Part shown: positions 4,543 through 13,045 of the stretch, piece by piece
Numbering within the stretch: the stretch's first letter is position 1
How the letters are laid out: every line of letters starts with the position of its first letter
Origin: Anaerolineales bacterium
Lineage (GTDB): Bacteria; Chloroflexota; Anaerolineae; Anaerolineales; UBA4823
Length of the DNA stretch: 64,000 nucleotides
Reading direction: 5' to 3'
Assembly (NCBI GenBank): GCA_020060465.1
Contig: JAGVAD010000009.1
Span: 1 to 64,000 of the forward strand
Translations under genes and position numbers: made by a program
Notes under the pieces: model-generated
Told to the model about the DNA's origin: nothing
Databases searched by the model: none
Seen by the model: the letters and a program-made list of their open reading frames with translations, nothing else

Positions 4543-5031
4543 CTATGCTGCCAGAAGCGCAGTATCGCGGTTCAACTCTTCCAGCAACGCTAACAGCTCA
4601 TCATTTTCGGGAATATCGCTCATTGCCTTGCCATAGTGAACGTAACGCGCGATTCCGCTTCGGTCCACAATCACCTGAGCAGGCATACGTCCCAGTTTGA
4701 ACAGGTTGACCTCTTGTCCATATAACCGCAACACGCTATGATTTGGGTCAGGCAAGCCAATAAAGGGCAAATCGTTTTCCCCAAAATATGCAGCAAACGA
4801 ACTGCGATTCTCCGGCCCTACCACGATTACCTCGGTGTCCAAAGCCGCAATACGATCATAATCTCGGCGCAACTGCGCCATGTGCCGCTGGCAAAATGGT
4901 CACATAAAGCCGCGGTTGAACACCAACAGCACATTTTTCTTGCCGCGATAATCTGAAAGCCGCGTCATGCGCCCGTTGTAATCTTTCAACGCAAAATCCG
5001 GCGCAAGTTGATGAATCTCTATCTGTGGCAC
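4543..5031 (-). CDS. Selenocysteine-containing peroxiredoxin (AhpC/TSA family), TGA = Sec44
   Basis: Read through one in-frame TGA (4900-4902), this is a 162-residue thioredoxin-fold peroxidase. The N-terminal part (PQIEIHQLAPDFALKDYNG, then VLLVFNRGFM) and the C-terminal part (PFCQRHMAQL to the end) join in one frame with no gap. The TGA occupies exactly the place of the peroxidatic Cys of the CPFC motif, giving U-x-x-C with Cys47 as resolving residue. A hairpin at 4866-4879 fits a bacterial SECIS. The start is GTG 5031, with GGAAG 6 bases upstream. Members reduce peroxides at the expense of thiols. The gene has its own consensus promoter with CarH-like repeats. A nonsense mutation is the alternative, but the surrounding sequence is undamaged. 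Confidence 0.82.
4865..4902 (-). promoter_or_regulatory. Candidate bacterial SECIS element
   Basis: Counting from the TGA on the minus strand, the stem GGCGC (4879-4875), loop AGTT and stem GCGCC (4870-4866) form a clean hairpin, with a possible extra U-G pair outside. About 20 bases separate the TGA from the stem and 23 from the loop. A G followed by U sits in the small apical loop. Bacterial SECIS elements are known for a short stem-loop just 3' of the UGA with a conserved G at the start of the loop. I judged the fold by eye. Confidence 0.65.
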
Positions 5032-5159
5032 TTTCCACTTCCATTCATAATCTTTGAAGTAACATTTGCAAAAAGCGCGAACTGAAGGGTGTTATCGGCG
5101 CAAAACACTTTTCACCGTAAACCCACTTTCATATAAGTCAACGAATTCCGCACAAACAG

Positions 5160-5203
5160 ATTATACAATATTGTACATTATTTGTCAATGTATTGTCAAT
5201 TTA
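5160..5203 (-). promoter_or_regulatory. Consensus promoter of the peroxiredoxin with CarH-like 11-bp direct repeats
   Basis: On the minus strand TTGACA (5188-5183), a 17-base spacer and TATAAT (5165-5160) form a perfect sigma-70 promoter about 130 bases before the GTG start. Read on the plus strand, three adjacent 11-base units follow one another: TTGTACATTAT (5171), TTGTCAATGTA (5182) and TTGTCAATTTA (5193). The middle one covers the -35 box and the first lies in the spacer, so a bound protein would block polymerase. The same repeat type occurs at the carH divergent promoter (11950-11971). Confidence 0.75.
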
Positions 5204-5237
5204 TCTTACCCCCGATTTGGCTGAATCTGCTATTCTG

Positions 5238-6539
5238 TTATTCTACCGCCAAAGCTTCATCCACCTCATCGGGGGAGACAACCTCTGGCGCTGTGGGTTG
5301 ATACTCTCCTTTAGGCGCCAGGCGGCGAAAATAAATCCATTCCACCAATGGCGAAGTCATAAAAGTCGTTACCAACGCCATAATAACCAACATGGTAAAT
5401 AGCGTCGGCGTGATTACACCAATATCCAGACCGATGTTTAACAGGACCAGTTCCATCAAACCGCGCGTGTTCATCAAAGCGCCCAACGCTCCCGCTTCCC
5501 GCCAGCTCATCCCCGTCCAGCGCGCCGGCAATGCTGCTCCAACAAATTTGCCTGCTACAGCTACCAGCAGGATCAACCCAGCATCTGCCCATAATGCAAA
5601 CTCATTAAGCAACCCCAAGCTTGTGCGCAGTCCAGTGTATGCGAAGAACAATGGCAGCAAAAACACCACGGCGAAGTCATACATCTTTTCGATTAGCGCA
5701 TGGATAAAATTTCGTTTGCGCGGCATTGCTACTCCAGCCATGAAAGCGCCAAAAAGGGCATGGATACCCAGCATTTCGGTAATCCATGCCGAACCCAGCG
5801 CAAACACCAATATCAAAGCCAACGCGCCTTGGGTAATCTCACCTCGTTGCTCATAATACATTTCGATGCGTATTACCAACTTTCGCAACGGATATAACAT
5901 AACAATAACATAAAGCCCTACCCCGATGATGGTTGCCCAAAATGGCAGGCTGGTTTCCGCAGCCCGTGCTAGCAACAACACGATGGCTAGAATCATCCAC
6001 CCGCTAATATCGTCTAAAGCGGCGCAAGCGATTGCTACCGCGCCGAGTTCGGTACGTAACAGCTTGCGTTCAGATAGAATACGCGCCAGCACGGGAAACG
6101 CAGTGATACTCATCGCCGCGCCGATAAATAAGGCGAATACTAAAAAAGAAACACCCTCCTCAGAAAGATGAGGGTACAAATAGAGCGCCAGCAACACGCC
6201 TAAGCTGAACGGCACAATGATACTCGTTGGGCTGGTAACGAATGCAGTGGAAGTTCGCCCTTTGAGAACCTGCAAATCCAGTTCCAAACCAATCAAGAAC
6301 ATAAACACAATCAAGCCTACCTGGCTGAGGGCATTTAAGAATCCCAGGCTTTGAGAAGGAAACAGCGAATGATACGCCCCAGGTGCTATCCATCCGAGCA
6401 CCGAAGGTCCAAGCAGGATGCCTGCTGCCATTTCCCCCACCACCTGCGGTTGGCGGATTTTACGAAACGCCCAGCCCACCAGCCGAGCTGCTGTCAAAAT
6501 AACAATAATTTGCATGGTGAACAACGGTAAATTCAACAC
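5238..6539 (-). CDS. CPA2-family cation/proton antiporter (KefB/Na+/H+ type)
   Basis: This 433-residue integral membrane protein has about twelve hydrophobic segments. Typical CPA2 features are the PQVVGEMAAGILLGPS helix near 30-45, FLIGLELDLQVLKG near 80, the DDISG pair near 175 (the acidic residues used for ion exchange) and NTRGLMELVLLNIGLD near 355. It lacks the cytoplasmic NAD-binding RCK domain of KefB/KefC, so it stops at the transporter core plus a short acidic tail. It would exchange Na+ or K+ for H+. It lies downstream of the LysE gene on the same strand with 36 bases between them. Confidence 0.88.
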   Translation of the reverse strand: MLNLPLFTMQIIVILTAARLVGWAFRKIRQPQVVGEMAAGILLGPSVLGWIAPGAYHSLFPSQSLGFLNALSQVGLIVFMFLIGLELDLQVLKGRTSTAFVTSPTSIIVPFSLGVLLALYLYPHLSEEGVSFLVFALFIGAAMSITAFPVLARILSERKLLRTELGAVAIACAALDDISGWMILAIVLLLARAAETSLPFWATIIGVGLYVIVMLYPLRKLVIRIEMYYEQRGEITQGALALILVFALGSAWITEMLGIHALFGAFMAGVAMPRKRNFIHALIEKMYDFAVVFLLPLFFAYTGLRTSLGLLNEFALWADAGLILLVAVAGKFVGAALPARWTGMSWREAGALGALMNTRGLMELVLLNIGLDIGVITPTLFTMLVIMALVTTFMTSPLVEWIYFRRLAPKGEYQPTAPEVVSPDEVDEALAVE

Positions 6540-8496: not shown

Positions 8497-9894
8497 TCAT
8501 CCGCCCCGAGCAGTCTGGTACACCTGCAAGGCGCGTTCTTTCGCCCAGGCATGGTCCACCAAAGGCGGAGGATAATGGCGGCCAATATAGCAGCCCGCCC
8601 GACGTTGCACTTCCTCAGGCATTGTCCACGGCTGGTGAAGATATTTCAGAGGAACATCTTGCAGCTCCTGCAGCCAGTAGCGGATAAACACACCTTGTGG
8701 ATCGGTCTTCATACTCTGCGAAACTGGATTAAAGACACGAAAATACGGCGCCGCATCGGTACCAACACCAGCTATCCATTGCCAGCCGCCATTGTTAGCT
8801 GCTGGATCGCCATCCATTAGATGCTGCATGAACCATCTTTCACCCCAACGCCAGTCAATCAACAGATCTTTCGTCAAAAAAGAGGCTGTGATCATCCGTC
8901 CCCGATTATGCATCCACCCAGTGTGACTTAATTGCCGCATTAAAGCATCTACAATGGGGTATCCCGTGCGCCCATTTTTCCATGCTTCAAACTGCACCAT
9001 ATCGTTCACCCAGCGTACATCAGCTAGACGAAGGTTCTCGTGCCGCAAGCGAGGGAAATAATATAGGAGATGGATATAAAAATCGCGCCAGATTAGTTCA
9101 TCTAACCAGGCTTCTGCGCTGCGGCGCGCTGTCTCGTCTGGTGCTAAATGGATCGCTTGGCGGGCAGCAGCAACAGCCTGACGCGCCGAAAGCATACCAA
9201 AACGTAAAAAAGGCGAAAGTTGCGAAGTTCCTGCTACATCCTGGCGATCACGCTGTTGATGATAGAGATAAATGGCAAGCTCAGTAAACCGTGTCAAACG
9301 GCGCTGCGCCTCTTTCTCTCCAGCCGGGAAACCATCTGGAGGTAAAGAAAATTGTAATGTCGGCAAAGTTGTTAACCCTGGCGGAGTGTCAATTCGTTGG
9401 GGGGCTTCGAAATAGGGCTTTTCGCTCAGCTCAGGCAAAGCCTTCCACGCCCGGCTAAAAGGGGTGAACATCCTATAGGGCTCGCCATTAGCTTTTACTA
9501 CCGTCCCCGGTGGCCGCGCCGCGGGACTTCCCGCCCAGAAAACAGGCAATTCCCGCCCCACCCGATCATCTCTACGGCGGGCATAAGGCGAATAATCTGG
9601 CTCGGCAAAAATCACATCCGCCCCGCTCTCTGCCAGCAGCCGCCCTAACTCCACCACGGGATCGCCGCGCCTCACCACCAGATAACTACCACGCGCTCTC
9701 AAATCAGCATCCAAGGCGCACAATCCAGCAAACAGAAAAGCAACCCGTTTTTCTCCCACATACGGCGATGCCAACAATTTCTCATCCAGAACAAACACCG
9801 GAATAACTCGCTGGCGCGCCCGCAAAGCGCCAATCAGCGCCTGGTTATCACTCAACCGTAAATCGCGCCGCAGCCACCAGATCGCTGCACTCAC
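8497..9894 (-). CDS. phrB: Deoxyribodipyrimidine photolyase
   Basis: A 465-residue photolyase, which uses blue light and FAD to split cyclobutane pyrimidine dimers in DNA. The N-terminal antenna domain begins AAIWWLRRDLRLSDNQAL. The FAD domain shows the class I series: WLDELIWRDFYIHLL (about 260), SHTGWMHNRGRMITASFLTK (about 317) and GDPAANNGGWQWIAGVGTDA (about 365), including the conserved Trp residues used for electron transfer. Its ATG overlaps the stop of the aldo/keto reductase gene by 4 bases, so the two are translationally coupled. It is probably the last gene of an operon that starts at the CarH-type operator near 11950. Confidence 0.95.
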   Translation of the reverse strand: MSAAIWWLRRDLRLSDNQALIGALRARQRVIPVFVLDEKLLASPYVGEKRVAFLFAGLCALDADLRARGSYLVVRRGDPVVELGRLLAESGADVIFAEPDYSPYARRRDDRVGRELPVFWAGSPAARPPGTVVKANGEPYRMFTPFSRAWKALPELSEKPYFEAPQRIDTPPGLTTLPTLQFSLPPDGFPAGEKEAQRRLTRFTELAIYLYHQQRDRQDVAGTSQLSPFLRFGMLSARQAVAAARQAIHLAPDETARRSAEAWLDELIWRDFYIHLLYYFPRLRHENLRLADVRWVNDMVQFEAWKNGRTGYPIVDALMRQLSHTGWMHNRGRMITASFLTKDLLIDWRWGERWFMQHLMDGDPAANNGGWQWIAGVGTDAAPYFRVFNPVSQSMKTDPQGVFIRYWLQELQDVPLKYLHQPWTMPEEVQRRAGCYIGRHYPPPLVDHAWAKERALQVYQTARGG

Positions 9895-11927: not shown

Positions 11928-11982
11928 ATTATACTCTCCAAAAAATGACGTGTCAATATATTGTATAAATTCATTGGACACA
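11928..11982 (-). promoter_or_regulatory. Consensus promoter of the SDR-AKR-photolyase operon with CarH-like repeats
   Basis: On the minus strand TTGACA (11956-11951), a 17-base spacer and TATAAT (11933-11928) give a perfect promoter 73 bases before the SDR gene. On the plus strand two adjacent 11-base units, GTGTCAATATA (11950) and TTGTATAAATT (11961), cover and flank the -35. A third unit (11972) is degenerate. The -35 begins at the second base of the repeat, which is the same phase as in the peroxiredoxin promoter. The repeats also lie just upstream of the carH promoter. Confidence 0.72.
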
Positions 11983-12052: not shown

Positions 12053-13045
12053 ATGATTCCACTGCCTGACGTCGCGCTAGGCAGCGACGAGCCATTATAC
12101 AATATCGGTGTGGTTGCCCGCATGACGGGCGTTTCGATGGCTACCCTGCGCGCCTGGGAGCGCCGCTACAACTTTCCCGAATCCGAGCGCACTGCTGGAG
12201 GACACCGCCTGTATTCCGAGCGCGACGTATTACGCCTGCGCTGGGTCAAACAGCGTATTGATGAAGGTATGCAAACCGCCCAGGCGATCAACGCCTTGCG
12301 TCACCAAGAGAAAACCGGCAACCTGGCGCTCATTGAACCATTACATACATTCGCCGAACAAGCCCGCGATGAGACAATCGCCAAAACCACCGCCCACCTG
12401 CCGAAGATCCAAGTCGAGCTGGTTGCTGCCCTCACGCACCGCAATCTACAACGCGCGGATAACCTGCTGGGCGAAGCCCTGGCTCTTTCCAGCCCGGAGG
12501 ATCTGATCCTGAATGTCATCAGTCCCACGCTCTCGCAAATTGGCGAGGCCTGGGAGGATGGCCAGATCAATATCGCCACCGAACATCTGGCTACCAATTA
12601 TCTACGTCAACGCTTGCTGATGTGGATGGTCAGCGGCCCGCCGCCGCGTGAGATCAATCCCATCTTGCTCGCCTGCGCGCCAAACGAATGGCACGAAGGC
12701 AGCTTGCTTATCTTAGGAGCATTGTTACGCCGTCGCCGTTGGCCGGTTGCCTATTTAGGTCAGGCTATGCCTCTGCCCGATCTGGCAAACATCGTGCGCG
12801 AACTGCACCCATCCATGCTCGTTATGGTAGCGATGACCGAAAACTCCGCTGCCGAATTGAGTGATTGGCCGCAATGGCTGCCTGAAGCCGCGCAAAGCGG
12901 CAAACCACCGGCTGGCTACGGCGGGCGCATCTACGCTCAACAGCCCGAATGGCGCTTGCGCATGGCAGGCATCTACCTGGGCGATACCTTCCAAGAAGGT
13001 ATTGTGAACATTGAACGTCTGCTAGAGGGCCGCACACACAGCTAA
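12053..13045 (+). CDS. carH: CarH/LitR-type MerR repressor with B12-binding photosensor domain
   Basis: A 330-residue protein. Residues 16-85 are a MerR winged helix (IGVVARMTGVSMATLRAWERRY, AGGHRLYSERDV). Residues about 115-195 are the four-helix cap that covers cobalamin, and about 203-325 the Rossmann B12 domain. The light-sensing W-x9-EH motif is intact (W167, E177, H178). The E-x-H cobalamin motif is present as EWHEG with H214, the expected lower axial ligand. CarH proteins bind DNA as adenosylcobalamin tetramers in the dark and fall apart in light. Next to it are photolyase and two oxidoreductases with repeat-bearing promoters. It converges on the methyltransferase operon with a 4-base overlap. 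Confidence 0.88.
   Translation: MIPLPDVALGSDEPLYNIGVVARMTGVSMATLRAWERRYNFPESERTAGGHRLYSERDVLRLRWVKQRIDEGMQTAQAINALRHQEKTGNLALIEPLHTFAEQARDETIAKTTAHLPKIQVELVAALTHRNLQRADNLLGEALALSSPEDLILNVISPTLSQIGEAWEDGQINIATEHLATNYLRQRLLMWMVSGPPPREINPILLACAPNEWHEGSLLILGALLRRRRWPVAYLGQAMPLPDLANIVRELHPSMLVMVAMTENSAAELSDWPQWLPEAAQSGKPPAGYGGRIYAQQPEWRLRMAGIYLGDTFQEGIVNIERLLEGRTHS

Follow-up and report, generated by a model that had tools for sequence, protein, structure and literature searches.

Predicted selenocysteine-containing UxxC redoxin with a candidate CarH-type promoter in an Anaerolineales genome

The window (the whole stretch of DNA analysed here, 64,000 nucleotides) comes from an Anaerolineales genome whose assembly totals 3.18 Mb over 64 contigs and is 83% complete. 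On its minus strand, next to a CPA2-type antiporter gene, lies a frame that is open down to its TAG stop (4545-4543) except for a single internal TGA (Table 1). An earlier note on this DNA had described the frame as continuous across one TGA, and translation with TGA as selenocysteine (U) bears this out, giving VPQIEIHQLAPDF...LLVFNRGFM-U-PFCQRHMAQLRRDY...KLGRMPAQVIVDRSG...LLAA-stop, in which Sec44 stands within ...VFNRGFM-U-PFCQRHMAQLR... The read-through product is matched by the Pfam families AhpC-TSA (PF00578, E 2e-21) and Redoxin (E 3e-16). Standard ORF calling returns only the 112-aa tail behind the TGA (4881-4543), exactly the truncation that the note had foreseen. The same window encodes a DNA photolyase and a CarH-type repressor; searches of it for Rfam families and for tRNAs gave no match.

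Table 1. Positions of the redoxin gene, its sites and related features within the window
Feature	Positions	Strand	Basis
Selenoprotein gene, peroxiredoxin-fold UxxC redoxin, 162 aa, Sec44; GTG start, TAG stop	4543..5031	-	TGA=U translation, PF00578, AlphaFold model
UGA codon for selenocysteine 44 (predicted)	4900..4902	-	TGA at equivalent position in 89/90 relatives
Cys47, second residue of UxxC; at Prx peroxidatic position	4891..4893	-	invariant column, profile alignments
Bacterial SECIS hairpin (predicted), (U)GGCGC-AGUU-GCGCC(G), G at second loop position	4865..4880	-	homologue conservation, compensatory changes, codon choice
Pro117, thioredoxin-type cis-Pro position, in place of Prx catalytic Arg	4681..4683	-	invariant in 40 homologues; aligns with RLP of 3hdc
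Consensus sigma-70 promoter TTGACA-17-TATAAT, 12/12 match	5160..5188	-	
Candidate CarH operator, three 11-bp direct repeats TTGACAATACA TTGACAAATAA TGTACA; middle repeat = -35	5172..5199	-	match to published nnnnTnnACAn
CPA2-type cation/proton antiporter, upstream neighbour of redoxin gene	5238..6539	-	
DNA photolyase, predicted member of redoxin light regulon	8497..9894	-	PF03441/PF00875
Second candidate CarH operator/promoter, before NmrA-AKR-photolyase genes, divergent from carH	11928..11967	-	conserved in G426
CarH-type B12 photoreceptor-repressor, MerR HTH + B12-binding domains, RxWERRY, Wx9EH	12053..13045	+	Pfam, motifs, PDB relatives

Relatives of the redoxin were sought in 396 genomes of the class, of which 155 held one at E 1e-15, and 90 loci were compared. 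Among relatives at this threshold the closer ones carry the TGA. In the 90 loci the codon-44 column has TGA in all but one (L112), which has TGC for Cys, and both flanks of the TGA are conserved across the 89 at 40-80% identity. A family search found the TGA also in the redoxin of the congener G427 (79% identical) and in many other genera. Among the named carriers of the Sec redoxin are Leptolinea sp. HRD-7, whose genome is complete, a MAG of Anaerolinea thermophila and numerous Anaerolineae MAGs; a few contigs bearing the labels GN15, Desulfobacterales and Clostridiaceae carry it too. Conservation on this scale argues against a chance TGA. The source genome encodes selA (7.6e-159), selB (7.0e-103), a tRNA-Sec gene (selC; 73 bits, where the gathering score is 47) and selD (2.3e-107). 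Selenocysteine had been proposed here in the earlier note, with the proviso that missing sel genes or decayed frames in close homologues would speak against it; all four genes are present, and the homologues keep both frame and TGA.

Two further selenoproteins are predicted in the same genome. The selD gene (contig 30, 17123-18055; L051) has one in-frame TGA of its own, within SSCAG-U-ASKLN, while contig 56:66977-67767 (L018, 1501-2289) encodes an AhpE-like peroxiredoxin with a TxxU motif, its U given by TGA, and a C-terminal glutaredoxin-like domain fused in one frame (CTDWCPACRRARAYF).

The 5-base GC stem with an AGTT loop noted earlier about 20 bases downstream of the redoxin TGA is found as GGCGC-AGTT-GCGCC at 4879-4866, its core starting 20 nt past the TGA. 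AGTT recurs at equal offset, with at least four of the five stem pairs, in 81 of 89 Sec homologues. Five Sec redoxins from same-order genomes (the f2 group: L091, L093, L095, L101 and L102) have it 9 nt nearer the UGA; these encode RAQLARL where others have RRHMAQLR, residues that fit the moved loop. Pair (23,36) has changed in a compensatory way from GC to CG in four sequences, and L041 has exchanged both CG for TA and GC for AT at the cost of an Arg to Cys change in the protein. Codon choice over the hairpin is nearly frozen: Leu is TTG in 84/86 (20% elsewhere in the same redoxin genes), Ala is GCG in 84/86 (28% elsewhere) and Gln is CAG in 81/81 (68% elsewhere). These counts are of non-independent events, yet they are spread over many families. 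In the Cys homologue L112 the letters of the hairpin are gone. Synonymous recoding gave only mild z-scores for the folding energy of the region, which is therefore not counted as proof of a SECIS element; the case is based on codon freezing and covariation, which at the level of sequence demonstrate selection on the predicted hairpin.

The redoxin accordingly has what marks a bacterial selenoprotein, namely an in-frame UGA at a redox site with a Cys homologue, a SECIS hairpin close behind the UGA with a G among its first two loop bases, and the genes selA, selB, selC and selD, and the evidence in the DNA for a selenocysteine codon is very strong. That the TGA is a real stop with the 112-residue ORF behind it as the gene, or that the locus is a decaying pseudogene, is extremely improbable. 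Ordinary ORF calling does yield exactly that ORF, but the conserved TGA and flanks, the synonymous codons frozen over the hairpin, Cys in the lone exception and the complete sel set all stand against it; a chance TGA or pseudogene was rejected on the conservation of TGA and hairpin codons.

An AlphaFold2 model of the redoxin, built with 40 homologues, has a pLDDT of 92.6, and its best solved matches in Foldseek are the Bcp and AhpE peroxiredoxins (TM 0.83-0.86), which with PF00578 place it in the Prx/AhpC-TSA fold. Columns invariant in the 40 homologues include R40, U44, C47, G114, P117 and D123. When the family profile is aligned with the peroxiredoxin 2ywn, U falls onto the Thr of TxxC; against the thioredoxin-family protein 3hdc, U and C fall onto both Cys of CPYC. 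U44 thus corresponds to the Thr of Prx PxxxTxxC and to the first Cys of thioredoxin CxxC, and the Sec of the contig 56 TxxU paralogue aligns with C47. Where a catalytic peroxiredoxin has PxxxTxxC with a reactive last Cys and a catalytic Arg, the redoxin has R40xxxU44xxC47 and Pro117. The earlier note had called this a peroxiredoxin with Sec at the peroxidatic position; the Sec, the UxxC and the AhpC/TSA fold stand, but the position does not, being ruled out by the profile alignment, which gives that place to C47. Because U44 occupies the Prx Thr place, C47 the peroxidatic place and Pro117 that of the Arg, the protein is, as judged from these residues, a UxxC redoxin that combines a peroxiredoxin fold with a thioredoxin-like active site. 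It is possible, if somewhat doubtful, that it is instead a true peroxidase and no disulfide reductase of the thioredoxin kind, with peroxide attacked by Sec44 or by Cys47 at the usual Prx position, as in GPx or Prx: the fold with its Bcp and AhpE matches, the position of Cys47 and the use of UxxT with Sec first by GPx selenoproteins (PMC13188914) are in its favour, but the other three residues of Prx catalysis are missing, with Arg40 standing in for Pro, Sec44 for Thr and Pro117 for Arg, and the thioredoxin cis-Pro is invariant.

Prx-like UxxC thiol:disulfide oxidoreductase selenoproteins of PF00578 have been reported from the Sargasso Sea and later surveys (PMC1088965, PMC13188914), in agreement with the remark in the note that such proteins are known in other bacteria. 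The redoxin shares with them the PF00578 fold, UxxC instead of TxxU and a SECIS directly downstream of the UGA. It has both defining features of the class, PF00578 and UxxC (PMC13188914; published representative WP_010940744.1), and by these predicted features it belongs to an already known, predicted kind of selenoprotein. It differs in its predicted light/CarH control and its neighbourhood of light genes, which go unmentioned in the literature searched. TxxU selenoprotein peroxiredoxins (PrxU type), of which the contig 56 protein is one, likewise combine the Prx fold with Sec, but their Sec is peroxidatic, whereas the redoxin has its Sec three positions closer to the N-terminus and lacks the Thr and Arg of Prx. 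The best NCBIfam model, the SelL-related redox protein NF040769 (E 4.5e-23), scores 81.8 bits against a cut-off of 120, and membership of the SelL family was rejected.

Published CarH operators consist of tandem 11-bp repeats nnnnTnnACAn, one of which holds the -35 element (PMC9304148). The pairing of a consensus promoter with CarH-like repeats, already remarked on in the note, is confirmed upstream of the redoxin, where three perfect repeats run over the -35 of a promoter without a mismatch to consensus. Exact triple TnnACA sites occur twice in the genome, and the backwards-pattern control has none. The second (contig 9:19961-20011; L114, L185) precedes an HMG-CoA synthase-like gene, a name that is a reading of the sequence, those of the other neighbours coming from Pfam; it is kept in G427 (L186), and suggests a light control of isoprenoid supply. 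Under a relaxed pattern, in which one repeat is followed by a second that serves as the -35, then by 17 nt and TANNNT, this genome has five sites: before the redoxin, HMG-CoA synthase, the carH/NmrA-AKR-photolyase genes, a DUF4345-DUF3159 operon on contig 29, and on contig 5, where it looks incidental. Of these, the one at HMG-CoA synthase is also present in the congener G427, and the one at carH/NmrA in the congener G426.

The CarH-type protein of the window has as its best PDB relatives 3whp, a probable transcriptional regulator (E 2e-36), and the CarH structure 5c8d (E 4e-36). The motifs diagnostic of CarH are RxWERRY, Wx9EH and D/ExHx2G/P-x41-SxT/V-x22-27-GG (PMC9304148). The first two are present, as RAWERRY and WEDGQINIATEH. 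Of the third, ExH and GG are present, Ser follows Hx2 (EWHEGS versus ExHxxG/P), a departure that weighs against the CarH reading, and SxT/V is hard to place.

Light genes accompany the redoxin elsewhere too. There are 54 photolyase matches in 80 genomes with the Sec redoxin and about 60 CarH-like matches in 80 largely overlapping genomes. Photolyase and redoxin share a contig in 15 cases, from other genera in several families, and in 14 of these they are no more than 10 kb apart; a CarH-like gene lies within 20 kb in 11 of 14. G327, G372 and G382 have a mostly gapless one-strand run of crtI-like, carH-like, small membrane protein, redoxin, (SDR), MFS, unknown and photolyase genes, divergent from phytoene synthase and with an operator-promoter at its head. 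In G402 the redoxin comes last, behind carH, MFS, photolyase, membrane protein and hydrolase genes in that order. G408 has an independent, perfect triple operator with its promoter 133 bp upstream of the redoxin itself, and in G406 another of this kind stands at the start of the gene run that ends with the redoxin.

Across 137 non-redundant loci, strict operator-promoters within 3 kb number nine upstream on the same strand, none downstream, one on the other strand and none in the reversed sequence. A direct upstream operator as a class-wide rule was rejected, with two of 136 other loci having one within 500 bp at a loose threshold and the reversed control one; the 3-kb same-strand test used a stricter threshold and is asymmetric (9 versus 0). 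CarH control of the redoxin is not universal, as most of the 137 loci have no operator within 3 kb upstream. In G427 the redoxin lies directly behind the antiporter, and the promoter insert of about 200 bp, the CarH promoter and the operator are absent; its assembly (89% complete) gave no CarH-like or photolyase match. The possibility that the DNA at 5030-5240 is a mobile copy was dismissed, since no second copy exists in the source, G427 or G426 genomes.

These distributions bear on a further alternative, namely that the selenoprotein is genuine but the 11-bp repeats are coincidental or the target of a different MerR regulator, with expression that is constitutive or linked to general oxidative stress. 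The few loci with an operator within 3 kb (9/137) and the operator-less redoxin of G427 would suit it. However, the triple site is one of only two in the genome against none in the control, the motif is also found before carH/NmrA and before HMG-CoA synthase across different congeneric species, G408 has an independent site, and photolyase linkage recurs in several families, and this alternative is considered unlikely. Light/B12 control of the selenoenzyme is favoured on the grounds that CarH-type repeats wrap the promoter, carH lies in the window and the redoxin is linked to photolyase, crtI and carH elsewhere, which would also be consistent with a role in photo-oxidative defence.

The reading that joins these points, a selenoprotein made through SelA/B/C/D with a thioredoxin-like active site on a Prx fold and under CarH/light control in this genome, appears probable. 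SelA/B/C/D would read UGA codon 44 as selenocysteine, directed by the hairpin 20 nt downstream. Sec44 would probably be the attacking selenolate in a selenol-first redox cycle, Cys47 would resolve the selenenyl-sulfide and Pro117 would take the thioredoxin cis-Pro role. The enzyme probably reduces disulfides, or peroxides by a GPx-like selenol step, and would then be re-reduced by a thioredoxin system. Given the operator, the neighbourhood and the known mechanism of CarH, AdoCbl-CarH should cover the -35 of the redoxin promoter in the dark, and its release in the light would turn the redoxin on together with photolyase and isoprenoid/carotenoid genes. We lean, with rather less assurance, towards a wider proposal in which the selenoenzyme has a fixed place in a B12/light (CarH) photoprotection regulon throughout Anaerolineae, alongside photolyase and carotenoid genes, and is switched on as light destroys AdoCbl-CarH, so that selenium, vitamin B12 and light would be tied together.

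The CarH/LitR regulons of Thermus, Bacillus and Myxococcus (PMC9304148) likewise have a MerR-B12 repressor, a tandem 11-bp TnnACA operator over the -35, and carotenoid genes and photolyase in clusters, but no selenoprotein target of theirs was found in the literature searched, whereas one is predicted here. The same literature, its coverage incomplete, yielded no link between CarH or any light switch and a bacterial selenoprotein, and nothing relevant on CarH with Chloroflexi and photolyase; the light-linked genetic setting of the UxxC redoxin looks new. Predictions of UxxC Prx-like selenoproteins go back two decades, and in the literature searched their function, too, has not gone beyond prediction; the neighbourhood and the operator here suggest a role in photo-oxidative defence that light sets off by way of vitamin B12. 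If this holds, the redoxin would be a selenoprotein under light control, and a widespread, unstudied Anaerolineae enzyme, whose gene an ordinary caller cuts to a fragment, would gain a testable function.

Other conserved genes were seen in the light clusters. A protein of about 200 aa that matches no Pfam family lies directly before the photolyase (L192 3895-4515, L194 8105-8713), and a membrane protein of about 265 aa, also without a Pfam match, adjoins the redoxin in several clusters (L195 5290-6093, L133, L157, L204). On contig 29:173229-173268 of the source genome (L187), a CarH-type operator with a perfect promoter precedes DUF4345, small membrane protein and DUF3159-like genes, and genes of these three kinds also lie on either side of the Sec redoxin of G327, G372 and G382.
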